From positions 56,067 to 120,066 of the forward strand of contig PDOO01000025.1 in NCBI GenBank assembly GCA_002742885.1: DNA of 64,000 nucleotides. Direction: 5' to 3'. Below, piece after piece: positions 5,705 through 12,557 of the stretch (positions are counted from its first letter, which is position 1; each line of letters begins with the position of its first letter). The notes under the pieces were generated by a model. The model saw only the letters and a program-made list of their open reading frames with translations, was not told where the DNA came from and did no database searches. Source of the DNA: Candidatus Cloacimonadota bacterium. GTDB taxonomy: Bacteria; Cloacimonadota; Cloacimonadia; Cloacimonadales; GCA-2742885. Both the position numbers and the translations under genes were made by a program.

Positions 5705-6475
5705 CTAATTTTTTAAATATACGGGAACGGTAACCGGATCTTTCTCGGAATCATTGACCGAAAGTTTTAAATTAAATAATTTTCGCTTATTATAAGTATC
5801 TTTTTTGTCAGACTTAATTTATTTTTATCGTAATCAAGTTTAAAATTTGTCATGCCGAGAGAATCAGTGATTTGTGTTTGATTTTTACCGATAAAATATT
5901 GTCTAAATTCTTCAGGTACGGATAACATTACCTTTGCCTTATTTAAAGGACCCCGGTATATTTCGGAATTTACAAAATTTCGGTTTACGATTTTCTCCTC
6001 TGTTTCTATATCTTTCGGAAGTTTATCTTCAGAATAAAGTTTTTTTCAATTCTTCATCTTCTTAAGAAGGATAAGATAAAAAAAGAGAACCGGCAAATAC
6101 GCTTAAAGCAGCAATATTCGCAATCTCCAAATTATCTTGTCTCGAATATTTATCGATATTATCGTTACTTTCCGTATCTATTGAAAAGAAAGCAATCAGC
6201 CATACTAAGACACCGCCCGAAAGCGGCAATAAAGGATTTTTGGACAGCCAAGGTTCCTTACGTATGAACACTTCTTTGGTTTCCGAATATTTATTCAGCG
6301 TTTTTTCTTCTTCACATTTAATATTGAGAATATCGTTTTTAAGTTCCGTTTTTACGATAATCTTATTGTTTTCCGTTAATTTCGTTTGCGGAGAAGATTC
6401 CAATACGACAACTGTGCATCCGTTTACCAAAAGAGTTAAGACAAGAAACAGAATTATATTTTTAAACCACCCCAT
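5705..6475 (-). pseudogene. Pseudogene of an outer-envelope lipoprotein, paralogue of the gene at 17893
   Basis: The ATG at 6475 has a good ribosome site (GAGAGG, 7 nt upstream) and begins a lipoprotein signal ending VNGC. The next ~130 codons align with the intact paralogue (for example YSETKEVFIRK and LSVFAG), but TAA at 6062-6064 stops the frame. Downstream the homology continues through two single-base indels in A runs: one extra A in the run at 6040-6046 and one lost near 5801-5806. Reading through gives LPKDIETEEK, then LSVPEEFRQYF and TDSLGMTNFKLDYDKNK, then LFNLKLSVND, and a stop at 5705-5707 that matches the paralogue's end. Function of the family is unknown. At most a truncated ~137-aa lipoprotein is made. 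Confidence 0.85.
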
Positions 6476-6562
6476 AAATTTTCCTCTCATATAAATTTTA
6501 TGAATTTCGAAATAAAAAAATCATTATATTGTCAAAATAAAACAAGGGTAATTCATAAAGCA

Positions 6563-6618: not shown

Positions 6619-7347
6619 CTATTTCATCAAAACCATTTTTTTGCTTTTGCTGAATCCGTTTCCGGTTAAACGATAGTAATAAATTCCGCTTGATACGGAT
6701 TTTCCGGAATTATCTTTACCGTTCCAAATAACCTGTCCTCGCTTTCCGTCGCTTTCAAGGCGGTTAAATATTTTCACCAATTGCCCCCGTGAATTATAGA
6801 CGGAAATTTTTGCGTCTTTTGCTTGCTTGGGAGTAAGGTTATAAGAAAGTGCGGTTACCGGGTTAAACGGATTGGGATAATTACCCAATTTAACTTGATT
6901 TTCGGCAACAACTTCATCGTCATTAGCTACGCCTTGCGAAGAAAAAGTCCAGTTATATTCAACGGAATCAATCGTAAACGGAACCGGGAAAGTTGCATCA
7001 GAGCTTCCGTAATAAAAAACGTAGTGAATAGGAGCATATCCGCCGGCAGGAATGGTTATTTGCGTCGGAAAATCAGCCATATAACATGTTTCAGTGTTAC
7101 ATACGGAAATAGCCCAACCTTCGGGAACGTCATGGTTAGTATATTGAAAGACAATAGTTATTTCCTCATCTGTATCGTTGTTGATGTGAGCCCATCCGGT
7201 TTCCCAGTGATCTCCTTCCAAATCAGCCGAAAGAGGACCGTGAATGGTCATTGTTTCTTCGTCAAAGCATTCCGGATATGTGATGTTAAGCGCCGTAAGA
7301 GACGCTAAGGCGAATAAGCCTAAAATTATCAATATGAATTTTTTCAT
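6619..7347 (-). CDS. Secreted protein with C-terminal sorting domain, last gene of the thiol-redox operon
   Basis: A 242-residue exported protein with a signal peptide (residues ~1-19). A beta-rich domain of about 115 residues contains three cysteines (YPECFDEE and CNTETC). The C-terminal ~85 residues are a sorting domain with NYPNPFNPVT, a GQLVKIF strand, WNGKDNSGKS, SSGIYYYRL and terminal KMVLMK. I do not recognise the central domain; it may be a single Ig-like fold. It follows the barrel gene after 30 bases and precedes the operon terminator. As cargo of a sorting pathway with spaced cysteines, it could be the surface client or end point of the redox proteins encoded upstream (inference). 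Confidence 0.75.
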   Translation of the reverse strand: MKKFILIILGLFALASLTALNITYPECFDEETMTIHGPLSADLEGDHWETGWAHINNDTDEEITIVFQYTNHDVPEGWAISVCNTETCYMADFPTQITIPAGGYAPIHYVFYYGSSDATFPVPFTIDSVEYNWTFSSQGVANDDEVVAENQVKLGNYPNPFNPVTALSYNLTPKQAKDAKISVYNSRGQLVKIFNRLESDGKRGQVIWNGKDNSGKSVSSGIYYYRLTGNGFSKSKKMVLMK

Positions 7348-7377
7348 ATTATACCTTCCTTTTTTTTATTTTTTAGA

Positions 7378-8913
7378 TTAAAAACGGGTTGTAATTGATA
7401 CTCTTACTCCCTCAAAAGGAGCCTGGTTTTTGCAAACGCCGTTACGGCAAACGATTCCGCCTTTTTCGGAGCCGGCAAAAACTTTTAATTCCGAATGTTC
7501 TTTTATCGGAGTTTTTACTTCTACTCCGATTTTTGCAGTTTGATCCGTTAAGTTGTTTTTATTTGAGAAATTATAAGTAAACAAGACGGAAACATCAAAT
7601 TTGCCGATTCCCAAATCAGTTTGGAATTCCGGTTCGTAATGATATTCTTTATGCCCGTCGTAATATTTGTCTTTGGTTTTCCATTTAGCTTTTATCAAAA
7701 ACGGCATCTCCCCGATGTTTGTATCAACGGAAATTTTTTGCGATTCTTCGTTATCGCCGTAGTTTTTGACTCCGCTTTCATCTATTCTTTCAACTTTATC
7801 ATATTCTAAGGTAAGTGTAGCCGCGCTCATTTCTCTTTTGTATTCAATGTGAGTATCGCTCATTTTAACCTTATCATTTGATGACCAAGCTTCGGAATAA
7901 TCGGCTGTAATTTCGTTTTCAAAATTGGGATTAAATCTGATAATTCCTCTGTAACCTTCTTCGTCAATACCGGGGTATTGATAATAACCGTAAGCCGCAA
8001 TCGCTTTTTCCGAATAATTTAAGGTAGGCAAATCGGCATAGCGATCGTTAAATTTTTTGTAATTTTTATAACCTCCGGTCAAAGTAAACATTCCGAGATA
8101 AAGATTGGAATTTGCATAAAAAGCATGTCCGAATTTTTCATCCGTTGAGTCATATTGATGCAATTCTGCATATTCTGCCTTAAAATCATATATTTCGCCT
8201 GTCAATTCTGTTTTACCGCCGAGAATTTCTCTTCTGTTATAGACATACTTATCCGAAACATCGGCAACCGGATCAGCTTCCAGTTTACGGATTAAAACCC
8301 CGGAAGCTCCTAATTTCCATTCTGTTCCCGACAAAGGTTTAAATGTATAGTCCAATCCTTGAGCAACATCGTATCTTTCGTTTTCTCCGGATTTTTCTTC
8401 GGTTTTAAAGTCATCTTTATCTGATTTTATTCTTCCGTAAACAGCTTGGATTTCCGAATTGAAAAATTTATCGAAACTTAATTTTGCTATTATTCCGTCG
8501 AGACGATAATCTTCTTCAAGATCCGTATTGTTATAGAGATGAAGCATCATTCCCGTACCGAAAACAGCCGATCCCGTTCCTCCTCGGAGATAAAATCCGT
8601 CCGTTTCGTATTCGAGATAACGGCTTTTCCATTCAACGTTTGCATCTCCCTTATCAAGATCGGCTTCCGGTTTGAATGAATCGTATTTCGGCAATTCGGC
8701 TCGAAACTCCATACCGAATCTGAATTTTCGGAAGTTTGTGTCAAACTTGAAAGAATCTTTGAAATAATGCTTTAAAGAATCTTCCGTATTTCGATAAATA
8801 TATTCCGCTTCGTTAAACCCCTGAATATAAAAATCGGAGTCGGACAAAAAGTCGTCGGCAAAAACTGAACAGGTTAAGAGCAAAGCGATAATCAGCAGGA
8901 AATTCTTTTTCAT
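7378..8913 (-). CDS. Outer-membrane beta-barrel protein, DUF6029-like
   Basis: A 511-residue protein with a signal peptide ending near CSVFA and an N-terminal motif (DSDFYIQGFNEAEYIYR) followed by about sixteen or more alternating amphipathic strands. It ends in a C-terminal Phe (ITTRF), the usual signal for outer-membrane barrel assembly. The segment YLEYETDGFYLRGGTGSAVFG resembles the DUF6029 family of Bacteroidetes-type genomes, recognised from memory. Just before the last strand is a cysteine pair (CRNGVC), unusual in a barrel. Ten bases separate it from the TlpA-like gene, in one operon. Probable role: outer-membrane port or anchor for the redox lipoproteins, not proven. Confidence 0.7.
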   Translation of the reverse strand: MKKNFLLIIALLLTCSVFADDFLSDSDFYIQGFNEAEYIYRNTEDSLKHYFKDSFKFDTNFRKFRFGMEFRAELPKYDSFKPEADLDKGDANVEWKSRYLEYETDGFYLRGGTGSAVFGTGMMLHLYNNTDLEEDYRLDGIIAKLSFDKFFNSEIQAVYGRIKSDKDDFKTEEKSGENERYDVAQGLDYTFKPLSGTEWKLGASGVLIRKLEADPVADVSDKYVYNRREILGGKTELTGEIYDFKAEYAELHQYDSTDEKFGHAFYANSNLYLGMFTLTGGYKNYKKFNDRYADLPTLNYSEKAIAAYGYYQYPGIDEEGYRGIIRFNPNFENEITADYSEAWSSNDKVKMSDTHIEYKREMSAATLTLEYDKVERIDESGVKNYGDNEESQKISVDTNIGEMPFLIKAKWKTKDKYYDGHKEYHYEPEFQTDLGIGKFDVSVLFTYNFSNKNNLTDQTAKIGVEVKTPIKEHSELKVFAGSEKGGIVCRNGVCKNQAPFEGVRVSITTRF

Positions 8914-8922
8914 AAAATCCTC

Positions 8923-9417
8923 TTATTCGCCCTTGGTCTTCAGGTATTTTTCAATTTCTTCTTCAATATGCTTTTCATCGCCTCTGGTGAAACCGGTATG
9001 AGACCAGATAATTTTTCCGCCCGGAGCGATTAAAACGGTTCTCGGAGGATTATCTACATTGTAGAGGCGTTTTACTTTTTGATCCGGATCAAGCAAGGTC
9101 ATAAATTTATATCTTTTTGATTTCACGTAAGATATTGCTTTCGATTTATGACGCGGCTTGTCTATTGAAACACATAAAACTTTGATTTTGTCTCCGTATT
9201 TTTTTTGAATTTTATCCAAATGAACCATTTCTTTTTTGCATGGAACGCACCAGGTTGCCCAAAAATCAAGCAGAACCAAACTGTCTTTGTAATCGGAAAG
9301 CTTTACTTTTTTCCCTTTGTAATTTTCCAATTCAAAGTCCGGGGCTTTTTTATTTTCTGCGAATAATCCGCCGACAATCAACAAAGCGATTATTGCGGCT
9401 AAAATAAATTTTTTCAT
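8923..9417 (-). CDS. TlpA/ResA-like periplasmic thiol-disulfide oxidoreductase
   Basis: A 164-residue protein with an N-terminal signal peptide or anchor (residues 1-20) and a complete AhpC/TSA-thioredoxin fold. It starts at APDFELENYKG, has the active site FWATWCVPC (Cys57 and Cys60), and a cis-Pro region around NPPRTVLIAPGG. Such proteins transfer electrons to or from protein cysteines in the periplasm. It lies between the Omp28-like and barrel genes with about 10-base gaps, in one transcript. It is a paralogue of the TlpA-like lipoprotein at 10515. Confidence 0.88.
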   Translation of the reverse strand: MKKFILAAIIALLIVGGLFAENKKAPDFELENYKGKKVKLSDYKDSLVLLDFWATWCVPCKKEMVHLDKIQKKYGDKIKVLCVSIDKPRHKSKAISYVKSKRYKFMTLLDPDQKVKRLYNVDNPPRTVLIAPGGKIIWSHTGFTRGDEKHIEEEIEKYLKTKGE

Positions 9418-9426
9418 ATAAAACTC

Positions 9427-10503
9427 CTATTTTTCAACTGTTATTTTTACGGCGTTGTGAACTTTATTGTTATCAGGATTTAAATCAAGTTCCTTGGTTT
9501 GGAATAAAACGACTAATTCTGCATCATCGGGAATATCCGTATCCGATAATTCTATGTCATAATTAATATTTCCGAGGTTTTGAACCGATGTTTCCCAGGC
9601 TCCGATAACCTGATTATGCATTTCCTGACCGTTAACATGATATTCTATGCCGGGATGAGGAATCGTCAAAACCATTCTCATTTTCAGGTTTTCAAGATTA
9701 ACTGAGGCGTCGTCTTCGGTTGTAACTTCAACCTTAAGGTTATTTCCCGTGAATTTTGCCGTTGCCTCAAACCTGATTTCTGCCGGTTCAGATGTTATTT
9801 TGGCAACCTTATCCCAATATTCTCTAATTTTGTTGTTTCCTGCTCCGATAATCGGTCCCTCACCGCTTATAACTGTTGCCGGTTGAGAAGCCGCCTGATA
9901 ATAAATCGCCTCGTTCATATAGGCATTTCCCGGATCAGCATCAAAAATGTAATCTGCAAAAATAAGCTGATCGCCGTAAACTGATTTAATCTGTTCTATA
10001 ACGGCAGACATCATCGGGCAGTTTCCGCAAGTAGTCGCGGTAAAAAATTGAATAAAAGCAACTCGGTTATTCGGATCGGCGGGAACAACGCTCAATTGAT
10101 TTCCGTAAAATTTACGTGTTTCGCCGCTAATCATTATAACGTCGTTGAAGTGTTCCGGAACGCCTGCTTCACTGCCTTCGGCAGTAAATTTCTTCAAGTA
10201 ATAAGAAACTTTTCCGGTTCTGTCGTAATCTTCGACGTAAATTCTGTATTTAAATGTATCGGCAGCCATATTTTCATAGCTTACATACATTAAATCGTAA
10301 TTTATTCCTGTATTTAAATAAGCGGAATCATAATATGTTTTAACGAAATTCTCAACCTTTTCAGGGGTAATTTCATATAAATCATTACTCATCTCTAAGA
10401 ATAAATTTTCGATTTTGCTGTCGGAATAAGTTACATGATCATATCTTTCGCATGCCGAAATCACAAGGACAGAGGCAATTAAGAAAATCCAAATTTTTTT
10501 CAT
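9427..10503 (-). CDS. Omp28-related lipoprotein with thioredoxin-like CGNC site
   Basis: A 358-residue lipoprotein with signal and lipobox VISAC (Cys18). An N-terminal region of ~130 residues is followed by a thioredoxin-like domain whose strand VAFIQFFTATTCGNCP carries Cys159 and Cys162. A C-terminal Ig-like domain resembles that of the Omp28-related proteins (MVLTIPHPGIEYHVNGQEMHN, ending in a DNNKVHNAV strand). Omp28-related proteins are outer-membrane or surface proteins in Bacteroidetes, and their biochemical role is poorly defined. The intact CxxC implies redox activity. It sits between two TlpA-like genes with gaps of 9 and 11 bases. Confidence 0.8.
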   Translation of the reverse strand: MKKIWIFLIASVLVISACERYDHVTYSDSKIENLFLEMSNDLYEITPEKVENFVKTYYDSAYLNTGINYDLMYVSYENMAADTFKYRIYVEDYDRTGKVSYYLKKFTAEGSEAGVPEHFNDVIMISGETRKFYGNQLSVVPADPNNRVAFIQFFTATTCGNCPMMSAVIEQIKSVYGDQLIFADYIFDADPGNAYMNEAIYYQAASQPATVISGEGPIIGAGNNKIREYWDKVAKITSEPAEIRFEATAKFTGNNLKVEVTTEDDASVNLENLKMRMVLTIPHPGIEYHVNGQEMHNQVIGAWETSVQNLGNINYDIELSDTDIPDDAELVVLFQTKELDLNPDNNKVHNAVKITVEK

Positions 10504-10514
10504 ATTATCTCCGC

Positions 10515-11066
10515 TTATTTTTTAAGCGAAGCCAATGCTTCTTTGAGTTTTTCTTCCAATTCGACTTCGTCACCTGTTTTGTATCCGGTATGCTTATAGA
10601 AGATTTCTCCGCCGGGCAACACGATATAGGTTACCGGAATAGCGCTTATTTTTAAATCTTTTTTAAGACCTCTTCCGCCGACATCAATCAACGTTTGGAA
10701 AGTAAATCCGTTTTTTCTGACAAATTCTTTGCCTTTTTCGGAAGTTCTTGCTCCGTCGGTGTCAACGGCAAAAACGGTTACGTTATCGTATTTTTCATGG
10801 ATTTTGTTCAAATGCGGCAATTCTTCGCAACAGGGACCGCACCAAGTTGCCCAAAAATCGATAATTACGGGACCTTTTTTCAAAGTTTCGTAAAGAGAAA
10901 CTTTTTCTCCGTCGATATTCTCAAGCGTAAAATCTGCCATTATTTCTGATTTTTTTACTTCGGTTTTGTGTCCATCTTTGTGTTCGGCTTTTTTGTCTGA
11001 TGAACCGCAGTCAGCTAAAAACATGGTGATTGTTGCAATTATCAATAATTTTGTGAATAATTTCAT
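10515..11066 (-). CDS. TlpA-like lipoprotein thioredoxin
   Basis: The ATG at 11066 is chosen because it has an AGAGAGG ribosome site and starts a proper lipoprotein signal (FLADC, Cys20). The in-frame codons upstream fall inside the preceding gene. The 183-residue product has a charged linker rich in Lys and His, then a thioredoxin fold (ADFTLENIDGEKV) with active site FWATWCGPCCEELPHLNK. Cys76 and Cys79 are the redox pair, with an extra Cys80. Its ATG overlaps the TGA of the polyferredoxin gene (ATGA), implying translational coupling and a shared task. A likely recipient of electrons from the inner-membrane partner (inference). Confidence 0.87.
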   Translation of the reverse strand: MKLFTKLLIIATITMFLADCGSSDKKAEHKDGHKTEVKKSEIMADFTLENIDGEKVSLYETLKKGPVIIDFWATWCGPCCEELPHLNKIHEKYDNVTVFAVDTDGARTSEKGKEFVRKNGFTFQTLIDVGGRGLKKDLKISAIPVTYIVLPGGEIFYKHTGYKTGDEVELEEKLKEALASLKK

Positions 11067-11926
11067 TTTTTCCTCTCTTTTTCTATTGTAAATATTTTGG
11101 TTATGGCTCCGCAACGTTCTTTTGTACAATTTCCGCACAAAATGCATTCCGGAGAATTGATTTCTTTGGAAGGGTTAAGATCAACCGGACAATGTGTTTC
11201 GCAAAGATTGCAATGGTAACATTTTGTCTCGTTGAAATTCAATTTAAGCAAGCTGAATTTATTCGTAATGCCGAAAAAAGCTCCCAAAGGGCAAACAATT
11301 CTGCAAAAAGGGCGCTTTATAAAAACGGCGGCAATCAAAACAGCCGAAAGTATTGCAAGTTTTGTCCAATACATGAATCCGACTAAGGGACGCAAATCCT
11401 CATGCAAAATAACTTGAGGTATTCCCGCGCCGATACATCCGGAAGGACAAATTTTGCAAAAATAAGTTTCCGTATTGCCGGAAGACGTTGTCAAAAACAT
11501 GGGCATCAAAATAACCGTAAAAATCAAAAACAGATATTTTCCGTATTTAAGCCAATCCGGTATTTTTATTTTTTTTGACGGGATATGATACACCCATTCC
11601 TGAATGAATCCGAAAGGACAAATCCAGCCGCAACTCCAACGTCCTATGAGACTTCCCAGCAACAAAAGGAATCCGAACATCAGAAAAGAAACGGAACCGA
11701 TGACAAAAAAGTGCTGGATACTGCCGATGGGACATGCCCAAATTGTCGAAGGCACCGAGTAACAGTTCAAAGCCGGAATGGGAACATACTTGAAAATATA
11801 TTCCAAATTTTCGTAATATTTTATATAAAAGTGTCCGTTTACGATGTATAAAAACAAAAACAGAATAACTAATCGAGTGTAGTTATTTGCGAATAAACTG
11901 ACTTTTCTTCGTCTTTTCTTTGCCAT
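11063..11926 (-). CDS. Membrane-bound polyferredoxin, NapH/CcoG-like 4Fe-4S protein
   Basis: A 287-residue inner-membrane protein with about five membrane helices and many cysteines. Two CxxxCP motifs of the NapH/RdxA type lie at SCGWICPFG (Cys99/103) and FCRIVCPLG (Cys208/212). A further CKICPSGC motif lies at 157-164. Two ferredoxin-type 4Fe-4S sites are at the C-terminus (Cys236-239-242-246 and Cys261-264-267-272). Such proteins pass electrons between the quinone pool or cytoplasmic donors and periplasmic acceptors. It is coupled by a 4-base overlap to a TlpA-like lipoprotein and preceded by a DsbD-alpha-like gene, so it may replace the usual DsbD/CcdA membrane segment (inference). Confidence 0.85.
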   Translation of the reverse strand: MAKKRRRKVSLFANNYTRLVILFLFLYIVNGHFYIKYYENLEYIFKYVPIPALNCYSVPSTIWACPIGSIQHFFVIGSVSFLMFGFLLLLGSLIGRWSCGWICPFGFIQEWVYHIPSKKIKIPDWLKYGKYLFLIFTVILMPMFLTTSSGNTETYFCKICPSGCIGAGIPQVILHEDLRPLVGFMYWTKLAILSAVLIAAVFIKRPFCRIVCPLGAFFGITNKFSLLKLNFNETKCYHCNLCETHCPVDLNPSKEINSPECILCGNCTKERCGAITKIFTIEKERKK

Positions 11927-11959
11927 AAGGTTTACCTAACCTATTCCTATACACGACAG

Positions 11960-12136
11960 TCACAAAGTTACGGCATTAGTCAAAATTTCAGGTAATTCGT
12001 CGTTTACTATTCCGACCAAAATCAATCCGATTCCGCCGATAATACCGAAAATTGTCGTTATTTTTCGCAGTAAAGATGATTTCTGTTCCGAATTTGTACT
12101 CGTGTTTTGGGATAAAGCTGCATTTTGTTCAGACAT
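11960..12136 (-). CDS. Small membrane protein of 58 residues in the thiol-redox operon
   Basis: A short gene with a strong ribosome site (AAGGAG, 7 nt before the ATG) and a TGA stop at 11960. The product starts MSEQNAALSQNTSTNSEQ, a polar Ser/Asn/Gln-rich N-terminus of ~20 residues. Residues SLLRK and a single hydrophobic segment (about 26-44, with GIIGGIGLILVGIV) follow, then a short acidic tail. It has no cysteines. It lies 13 bases after the DsbD-alpha-like gene and 33 before the polyferredoxin gene. I do not recognise a family. It may be an assembly factor or small subunit of the membrane polyferredoxin (inference). Confidence 0.75.
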   Translation of the reverse strand: MSEQNAALSQNTSTNSEQKSSLLRKITTIFGIIGGIGLILVGIVNDELPEILTNAVTL

Positions 12137-12149
12137 TTAAGTTCTCCTT

Positions 12150-12557
12150 TCAGCGAACGGACAATTCAATTTCAAATTCTTCCGGAGGTTCGCAATATGA
12201 ATCGAAGCAGAATTGATATCCGACATAAATCTTTATTTTATTAAGTTTTACTTTCGGATCAACTTTAAAGCTTTTCTTCATTTTAATCGTACCGTGATAA
12301 GAAATCATTCCGTCATGATTTTCTCCGCCCTCAGGATAAATTGTCTTGCCGAATGATACTCCTTCTGCTTTCTCTCCCTCTATAAAACAGAAATCTTCCT
12401 GTAAATTCATGTGCATTTTTTCAGGGATGTTAAGAGTTACGACAACAGTGTCTTTAATTGTCTCAGCCGAAACAATATCGTTTACTTTCACAACATTGCT
12501 TTTGCCGATAAGCAAAACAGGCAACAAGGCAATAAGCAATAAGATAAATCGTTTCAT
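12150..12557 (-). CDS. Stand-alone DsbD-alpha (N-terminal) domain protein
   Basis: A 135-residue exported protein: signal peptide (1-19), then an Ig-like fold of the DsbD N-terminal domain family. The diagnostic C-terminal motif is YQFCFDSYCEPPEE, with Cys117 and Cys122 matching the redox pair and the following Pro-Pro of DsbD-alpha. In DsbD this domain receives electrons from the membrane and gamma domains and hands them to periplasmic partners. Here the domain is alone, with no DsbD-beta or CcdA homologue nearby, and heads an operon with a membrane polyferredoxin and two TlpA-like proteins. An additional Cys is present at FCFIEGEK. First gene of the operon; AGGAAAT ribosome site. Confidence 0.8.
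   Translation of the reverse strand: MKRFILLLIALLPVLLIGKSNVVKVNDIVSAETIKDTVVVTLNIPEKMHMNLQEDFCFIEGEKAEGVSFGKTIYPEGGENHDGMISYHGTIKMKKSFKVDPKVKLNKIKIYVGYQFCFDSYCEPPEEFEIELSVR

Follow-up and report, generated by a model that had tools for sequence, protein, structure and literature searches.

To our knowledge, the reduction of disulphides outside the cytoplasm is understood mainly for DsbD, CcdA and ScsB, which draw on cytoplasmic thioredoxin. DsbD itself consists of three parts: the alpha domain, the beta part that acts as membrane carrier, and gamma, a thioredoxin domain. We analysed a 64,000-nucleotide stretch of DNA from a Candidatus Cloacimonadota bacterium (contig PDOO01000025.1 of assembly GCA_002742885.1), referred to here as the window, in which a row of eight open reading frames (ORFs) begins with genes for a stand-alone DsbD-alpha-like domain, a 66-residue peptide hidden behind an in-frame TGA, a membrane polyferredoxin and a TlpA-type thioredoxin (TlpA1). 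From sequence comparison we propose that these four leading genes replace DsbD as a supply of thiol reductant across the membrane, with a membrane part not homologous to that of DsbD, a reading to which we give a probability of roughly 0.7.

The new module resembles DsbD (and CcdA and ScsB) in its place in the gene cluster, in its partners there (Omp28-like, TlpA and DUF6029 proteins), in a homologous alpha domain and in a thioredoxin-type output. It differs from them in having no DsbD_TM domain, in being split into separate proteins and in its presumed carrier, the polyferredoxin with the selenopeptide; its presumed donor is an Fe-S chain, whereas that of DsbD is cytoplasmic thioredoxin. The proposed membrane carrier is unrelated to the known extracytoplasmic thiol-reductant carriers. 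With NapH, MauN and NosR the window polyferredoxin has in common the Fer4_5 CxxxCP motifs and a C-terminal dicluster ferredoxin, but its partners are thiol proteins and not nitrate or nitrous oxide reductase genes; CcoG is presumably a further membrane polyferredoxin of comparable type.

The peptide is akin to the CD1871A family (NF040920), likewise a CXXC-motif protein and likewise found beside a 4Fe-4S protein in Peptoclostridium; peptides of the window type differ in their predicted selenocysteine (Sec, U) at either motif position, in hairpins that resemble a selenocysteine insertion sequence (SECIS) and in their coupling to DsbD-alpha and the outer membrane. The Tso cluster, in the available part of PMC13188914, comprises the selenoproteins TsoA (LULAXC) and TsoB (rhodanese/DsbD-like). 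It too links selenoproteins with a DsbD-like protein, and the LULAxC of TsoA superficially recalls the LULSC of the window; however, the motif spacing differs, the Tso description names no polyferredoxin in that same part (PMC13188914), and the window peptide had no TsoA hit at E-values up to 1. The same source, published in 2026, catalogues 119 families and subfamilies of prokaryotic selenoproteins in its Table 1; neither CD1871A nor any family linked to a polyferredoxin of this kind is among them, and TsoA comes nearest by motif (PMC13188914). In open-licence literature we found neither a description of such a polyferredoxin/TlpA/CcdA/selenocysteine system nor a published function for a CD1871A-type peptide.

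Gene order and the exchange with DsbD

The locus has the following features.

12150..12557, - strand: DsbD-alpha-like domain, stand-alone, periplasmic, 135 aa, GYQFCFDSYCEPP, CxxxxC; homology to DsbD N-terminal domains
11936..12136, - strand: CD1871A-like probable selenoprotein, 66 aa, one transmembrane helix, C-terminal UxxC; TGA read as U, NF040920
11960..11962, - strand: UGA codon, predicted selenocysteine U59; TGT or TGC there in Cys orthologs, downstream differences synonymous
11928..11942, - strand: SECIS-like hairpin, AGGUA loop 22 nt past the UGA; spans the stop codon, just 5' of the polyferredoxin start
11063..11926, - strand: membrane polyferredoxin, four predicted transmembrane helices, C-terminal 2x[4Fe-4S] ferredoxin; Fer4_5 with hydropathy and charge
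10515..11066, - strand: TlpA1, thioredoxin-like, WCGPC, lipobox by eye; thioredoxin-type family matches
9427..10503, - strand: Omp28-like lipoprotein, thioredoxin-like CGNC segment; weak, partial Omp28 match
8923..9417, - strand: TlpA2, WCVPC; thioredoxin-type family, fused to the barrel in five relatives
7378..8913, - strand: DUF6029 beta-barrel, C-terminal CRNGVC; PF19494
6619..7347, - strand: small protein, type IX sorting domain, three Cys; TIGR04183
6569..6602, - strand: terminator-like hairpin 3' of the last gene, 15 pairs, T tail

Behind the head of the cluster, the window follows a plan that is widespread in its phylum. We label relatives with G-numbers (the window genome, 93.6% complete, is G000) and loci with L-numbers. 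Twelve hand-chosen loci were mapped, 11 of them DsbD-linked, and in 10 of these 11 the order was DsbD, Omp28-like protein, TlpA, DUF6029 barrel and sorting-domain-type protein (at the G016 locus neither an Omp28-like nor a sorted gene was detected); this common cluster can be seen at L149-L158 and L160. The window has the identical order behind the head, with DsbD exchanged for DsbD-alpha, selenopeptide, polyferredoxin and TlpA1. In G019, G031 and G043 the same two modules adjoin in reverse order, and in G029 DsbD and the new module stand in tandem. The original prediction had regarded the whole eight-gene chain as special, but the Omp28-like, TlpA, DUF6029 and sorted proteins are common in the phylum and normally lie beside DsbD; what is new is the exchanged head. 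When we took the 101 of 102 DUF6029 genomes with a listed place for the barrel, DsbD_TM lay 2.0-3.9 kb from it in 83, the polyferredoxin lay within 3.2 kb of it in 6 (among them G029, which also has DsbD, 5.9 kb away), and neither was on the barrel's contig in 12. A tree of 18 barrels did not unite the polyferredoxin-linked ones in one clade; the DsbD-linked G122 barrel grouped with them, strongly supported, which requires two or more changes of head.

The two heads also tend to be present in different genomes. The DsbD_TM model (PF02683) gave no match in G000 (control positive in 10 of 14), which extends to the genome an absence of DsbD-beta and CcdA first remarked on for the window. An initial survey covered 50 of 58 relatives and 6 others, the 8 less complete relatives being left out, and a later survey covered all 124 Cloacimonadota genomes, of which 106 have DsbD_TM. 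It is missing from six of the nine Cloacimonadota genomes that carry the module (G000, G019, G031, G043, G089 and G107). Among the 70 genomes of high quality (completeness 90% or more, contamination 5% or less) four are without DsbD_TM and all four are carriers, that is, 4/5 carriers versus 0/65 non-carriers (Fisher p 5e-6, with the kinship of three of the four ignored; 3e-4 for all 124 genomes). Three further carriers belong to the Latescibacterota, where G058 is without DsbD_TM and G130 and G131 have it. From these comparisons it is likely that the new module has replaced the DsbD membrane carrier in the carriers that lack DsbD, and the exchange of position with DsbD suggests that it would pass reducing equivalents to periplasmic thioredoxins.

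The module is sparse: 9 of the 124 Cloacimonadota genomes and 3 of the 64 in the Latescibacterota set carry it. The order DsbD-alpha, peptide, polyferredoxin, TlpA is repeated in five other genomes (G002, G019, G029, G031 and G043), so the association of these genes is not due to chance, and parts of the module are seen on two cut-short contigs (G089 and G090). A stand-alone DsbD-alpha lies 5' of the peptide in 7/7 Cloacimonadota loci with sufficient contig (G000, G002, G019, G029, G031, G043 and G089), and TlpA1 directly 3' of the polyferredoxin in 7/8 with enough downstream sequence, the window included and G107 being the exception. In the Latescibacterota carriers G058, G130 and G131 a thioredoxin_7/DsbH-type gene, instead of DsbD-alpha, precedes the peptide and polyferredoxin. 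Peptoclostridium acidaminophilum has a Cys-form peptide that overlaps the gene of a 4Fe-4S protein, with a TlpA gene ~1.5 kb upstream, and in a human gut sequence (L161, MT836032.1) a Cys-form peptide is followed by the polyferredoxin and a TlpA-type gene, which share a 4-nt overlap; divergent two-component genes lie alongside. MT836032.1 is filed, unannotated, as 'Bacteriophage sp.' from human faeces and looks like bacterial chromosome. In G029 the complete DsbD and a TrmB-type regulator are just upstream of the new module (L032 4852-7399), and in G089 a similar-looking regulator ORF is upstream of DsbD-alpha (L087 1250-2083).

Most of the family assignments made in the original prediction held up. 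In the window's ORF list the eight ORFs, all on the - strand and spanning 12557 to 6619, form one unit, which had been taken to be cotranscribed, with 9-30 nt between genes, an ATGA overlap joining polyferredoxin and TlpA1, and a closing hairpin. Profile scores bear out the polyferredoxin (Fer4_5, 68 bits, cut-off 22), both TlpA proteins (clear thioredoxin-type matches), the DUF6029 barrel (PF19494, 43.4 bits, gathering score 27) and the sorted protein (T9SS type A sorting domain, TIGR04183, 34.7 bits, cut-off 23). The Omp28-like lipoprotein stands only in part, its match to NF033782 covering 47 residues at 24.5 bits, far under the cut-off of 150. The isolated DsbD-alpha is sustained by homology to complete DsbD proteins: these domains had no Pfam match, none of six stand-alone copies passing PF11412, but in BLAST comparisons the window copy shared 36.6% identity (E 3e-16) with the N-terminal domain of the 549-aa DsbD of G029 and at best 40.8% (E 5e-22) with complete DsbDs of other relatives, and one related complete DsbD passes Pfam DsbD_N (26.2 bits versus 25). 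Both residues of its Cys pair are invariant in six of six aligned orthologs. Searches of PDB sequences with the DsbD-alpha and polyferredoxin alignments gave no meaningful match, an Rfam scan of the window at gathering scores gave none, and a scan of a viral contig collection found no relative. Beyond the terminator, at 6062-6490, is a 142-aa lipoprotein-like ORF with no family above cut-off.

The 66-residue peptide and its UGA codon

The second gene had been read as a 58-aa peptide, and that ORF is probably a truncated 66-aa single-helix membrane selenoprotein, the most unusual part of the system. Its frame continues past the TGA (11960-11962) to a TAG (11936-11938), the TGA and the codons after it (CTG TCG TGT ATA GGA ATA GGT TAG) giving U-L-S-C-I-G-I-G-stop. 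With the NF040920 model we identified orthologs in all 12 polyferredoxin genomes searched, six with one in-frame TGA and six with Cys. The TGA occupies the first motif position (ULSC) in the window, G019, G031 and G043, and the second (CLGU) in G029 and G089, while G002, G058, G090, G107, G130 and G131 have Cys at both; G089 (CLGU) and G090 (CLGC), which belong to one genus, differ by TGA versus TGT at the motif. In every UGA copy the codon takes the place of one of the two cysteines of the CxxC, and the orthologs show the pairing of UGA with Cys by which bacterial selenoproteins are recognised. The six Cys orthologs read through with TGT or TGC to endings of the form [LF][SG]CIG[IL]. Codon differences 3' of the UGA amounted to 14 synonymous and 0 non-synonymous over six overlapping pairs of the four ULSC copies, and to 3 and 0 in the G029/G089 pair, and they include one stop-to-stop change. 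Read with U as C, the window peptide scored 31.3 bits against NF040920 (cut-off 32), a cut-off exceeded in two of the 12 genomes (G090, 36.9; G107, 35.6). The peptide is directly 5' of the polyferredoxin in 11 of the 12. Charge counts gave more K/R before the helix than after it in 8/10 peptides, so the UxxC or CxxC should face outward. A scan for further UGA-readthrough genes returned mostly frame noise apart from the known copies.

In PMC13188914 the bacterial SECIS frame is given as a loop of 3-9 nt, a stem of at least 4 bp, a G in the first two loop positions and 16-37 nt spacing, and the energy limit as -7.5 kcal/mol or lower. The loose frame (loop, stem, spacing) fits 6/6 UGA copies. All 12 copies were also searched with a narrower pattern that demands a (N)GGU loop: a hairpin whose loop begins 17-23 nt past the UGA was present in 6/6 UGA copies and 0/6 Cys copies, against a background of 7/215 TGA stops of other long ORFs and 64/2000 randomly sampled Cys codons. 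Its stems vary between clades around a constant loop (AGGTT-AGGTA-AACCT, ATAGGC-GGT-GCCTGT, GAGTAA-AGGT-TTACTC). The window hairpin has an energy of -2.8 kcal/mol as a local stem and -6.9 as a larger structure at 11921-11958; one larger G019 structure reaches -7.8 kcal/mol, and whole 50-nt folds ran from -5.3 to -11.1 for five UGA copies (G000 not included) and from -4.8 to -7.7 for six Cys copies. The window hairpin (11928-11942) also reaches into the sequence immediately ahead of the start codon of the polyferredoxin gene, whose translation might therefore respond to selenium supply.

G000 has the Sec machinery, with tRNA-Sec at 60 bits (cut-off 47), SelB at 360.6 (242.25) and SelA at 524.7 (267.9). 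In a survey of 29 genomes, from which G089, G090, G107, G130 and G131 were left out, tRNA-Sec and SelB were both above cut-off in G000, G002, G019, G029, G031 and G043, among others, and below it in G058 and G010; SelA was above cut-off in 9/14 genomes (G000, G002, G008, G019, G029, G031, G043, G090 and G131). In G019, G031 and G043 a gap of 4-20 nt separates a tRNA-SeC gene from the DsbD-alpha ORF downstream of it (L033 7237-7331; L035 6646-6740; L036 6461-6555), which would suit a Sec tRNA that moves together with the module. Between the barrel and this tRNA-SeC/DsbD-alpha part, G019 and G043 encode a conserved, perhaps four-helix-bundle-like protein of ~190 aa in opposite orientations (L033 6559-7134 and L036 5765-6346). 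The UGA/Cys exchange, the Sec machinery and the hairpins, like the gene order, the homologies and the exchange and complementary presence with DsbD, are there in the sequences, and we infer that Sec insertion at the window UGA is very likely.

The polyferredoxin and a proposed electron path

We compared a close set of 13 polyferredoxins (without the truncated G089 protein, with two from G131, and with Peptoclostridium included) with a distant set, 17 of 24 loci, of NapH-like proteins from the phylum. For five of the 13, helices and charges were derived from hydropathy and K/R counts; four of the five have four helices with both termini inside, and G058 was not cleanly resolved. The loops of the window protein have 6, 2, 6, 3 and 12 K/R. 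The CxxxCP pairs C99/C103 and C208/C212 and the C-terminal ferredoxin domain are predicted inside; C55, C65, C157 and C160 are predicted outside and all four occur in 13/13 members, C65 and C157 being found in 0/17 of the distant set. The best named families are NapH/MauN and NosR, at scores far below cut-off, and with 55.9 bits against 213.05 for NapH/MauN (TIGR02163) we rejected NapH membership. G131 has a second polyferredoxin of the same subfamily (L131 6663-7445), with no upstream peptide seen, and G000 has a second, distant 4Fe-4S protein as a 372-aa ORF on a separate contig (C16, 15426-15680; L050 7361-8479).

The predicted inside and outside placement of these cysteines, with the peptide motif on the outer face, leads us to infer the following direction and path of electrons. 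In terms of DsbD, alpha would be a separate protein, gamma would correspond to TlpA1, and beta to the polyferredoxin with the 66-aa selenoprotein. On the cytoplasmic side, the C-terminal [4Fe-4S] ferredoxin domain would accept low-potential electrons, which would travel through the inner-face CxxxCP cysteines to the outer-face C55, C65, C157 and C160, acting as a cluster or as dithiols. At the periplasmic surface this outer set would pass them to the peptide, reducing its UxxC (or CxxU/CxxC). The peptide would then reduce DsbD-alpha and TlpA1, which in turn may reduce the outer-membrane module, namely the Omp28-like lipoprotein, TlpA2 and perhaps the CRNGVC pair of the barrel. The SECIS hairpin before the polyferredoxin start codon may couple translation to selenium supply. 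We would give even odds to the wider idea of a new class of pump, in which the polyferredoxin would carry single electrons from cytoplasmic ferredoxin, by way of Fe-S centres, to the outer side of the inner membrane and the selenoprotein would convert them to two-electron selenol/dithiol chemistry. Such a pump would have taken over the locus of DsbD itself in Cloacimonadota and, in its Cys form, would also serve Clostridia and Latescibacterota.

Five relatives (G019, G029, G031, G043 and G090) have TlpA2 and the barrel as one protein, with TlpA2 at the N-terminus, an arrangement that would anchor a thioredoxin to the inner side of the outer membrane. We considered whether the TlpA2/barrel split in the window is a frameshift and rejected this: the barrel ORF has its own ATG and a signal-peptide-like start, and the 11 mapped DsbD-linked barrels are also unfused. 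The fused G090 ORF (L085 2696-4675) overruns the usual C-terminal F near a contig end, perhaps by an assembly error. CRNGVC is present in 6/6 polyferredoxin-linked barrels and C[RK]NGxC in 12/12 other barrels read, located before the last strand. By the general rules of barrel topology, a site before the last strand would be a surface loop.

Alternative explanations and implications

Several observations tell against a selenoprotein-bearing module that took the place of DsbD. DsbD_TM is missing also in 12/115 non-carriers, all of them at most 86% complete; G019, G031 and G043 are closely related, so that the four high-quality cases amount to about two independent lineages; and DsbD_TM (DsbD or CcdA) is kept in 5/12 carriers (G002, G029, G090, G130 and G131), so replacement is not universal and the module can coexist with DsbD. 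The peptide matches of G019, G031 and G043 (3/12) are weak (E 0.04-0.3) and rest on position and the read sequence, the G107 peptide and polyferredoxin are on different contigs with no peptide in the 261 nt before the polyferredoxin, and charge orientation is equal in the G131 peptide and contrary in that of Peptoclostridium. Among hairpins, the core stems are weak, at -2.8 to -6.8 kcal/mol short of the -7.5 given in PMC13188914; the loose frame also fits 2/3 Cys copies checked (G002, -7.5, and G058, -2.2; G090 none); the whole fold of one Cys copy, G058, comes to -7.7; and the lowest-energy 50-nt fold of G031 is without the GGU-loop hairpin. SelA was not found in the UGA carrier G089 (89% complete, 490 contigs). 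The distant NapH-like proteins share C55 and C160, with an extra Cys just before C55, so outer-face cysteines are not unique to this polyferredoxin group, and three of 13 polyferredoxins are without three Cys of one C-terminal cluster. The original prediction had counted among the grounds for giving up its scheme a complete DsbD or CcdA elsewhere together with a polyferredoxin that clusters with unrelated respiratory genes in relatives. By its own rule the outcome is mixed: no DsbD or CcdA was found in the window genome, but the five carriers above do keep one. Its single pathway is now better founded, on synteny and on the module's position at the place of DsbD and not on gene order alone, while the electron path stays putative.

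The retention of DsbD_TM in those five carriers, and the tandem heads of G029, suit a module that is an additional reductant line for a special client such as peroxide repair, DsbD or CcdA covering general needs, with loss of DsbD incidental or an assembly gap. We consider this unlikely, as all four high-quality genomes without DsbD_TM are carriers and the window module occupies the normal DsbD position. An ordinary stop at the TGA, leaving a 58-aa membrane peptide and making the conserved bases downstream only a ribosome-binding or regulatory element for the polyferredoxin, would fit the overlap of this stretch with the region just before the polyferredoxin start and the weakness of the hairpin. 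It seems to us highly improbable and we rejected it, because six orthologs read through with TGT/TGC to the same kind of ending, within-type differences are all synonymous down to a stop-to-stop change, TGA is found at two different Cys positions in different clades with Sec machinery present, and the GGU-loop hairpin separates UGA from Cys copies.

Since NapH/MauN and NosR are its best named families, albeit far below cut-off, the polyferredoxin might instead take electrons from periplasmic thiols or quinol in an oxidising or respiratory line, as in NapH/NosR chains, with the thioredoxins only assisting assembly; but no Nap or Nos genes were seen in the cluster, the partners are of reductase type (DsbD-alpha, TlpA), the exchanged position is that of a reductant pump, and C65 and C157 are missing from 17/17 distant NapH-like proteins, all of which makes such a line very unlikely. 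A thiol line for cytochrome c maturation, substituting for CcdA/ResA, is scarcely credible: ResA is indeed the best-scoring family for TlpA1 and TlpA2, at scores short of its cut-off, but no Cytochrom_C_asm protein (CcmC/CcsA) was found in 13/13 Cloacimonadota genomes examined, the window's included, and we rejected it for the window genome. A Cytochrom_C_asm protein is present in all three Latescibacterota carriers.

If the replacement of DsbD by this four-gene module is correct, an Fe-S-fed, non-homologous carrier would let fermentative bacteria use low-potential ferredoxin directly for extracytoplasmic thiol reduction. It would be an independent solution to the problem that DsbD solves, would assign a role to a very small membrane protein with a CXXC motif and to the 4Fe-4S protein beside it, and would add a selenoprotein of a kind that gene finders truncate. 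The common DsbD-Omp28-TlpA-DUF6029 cluster in turn raises the question of why reducing power goes to the outer membrane in these bacteria.

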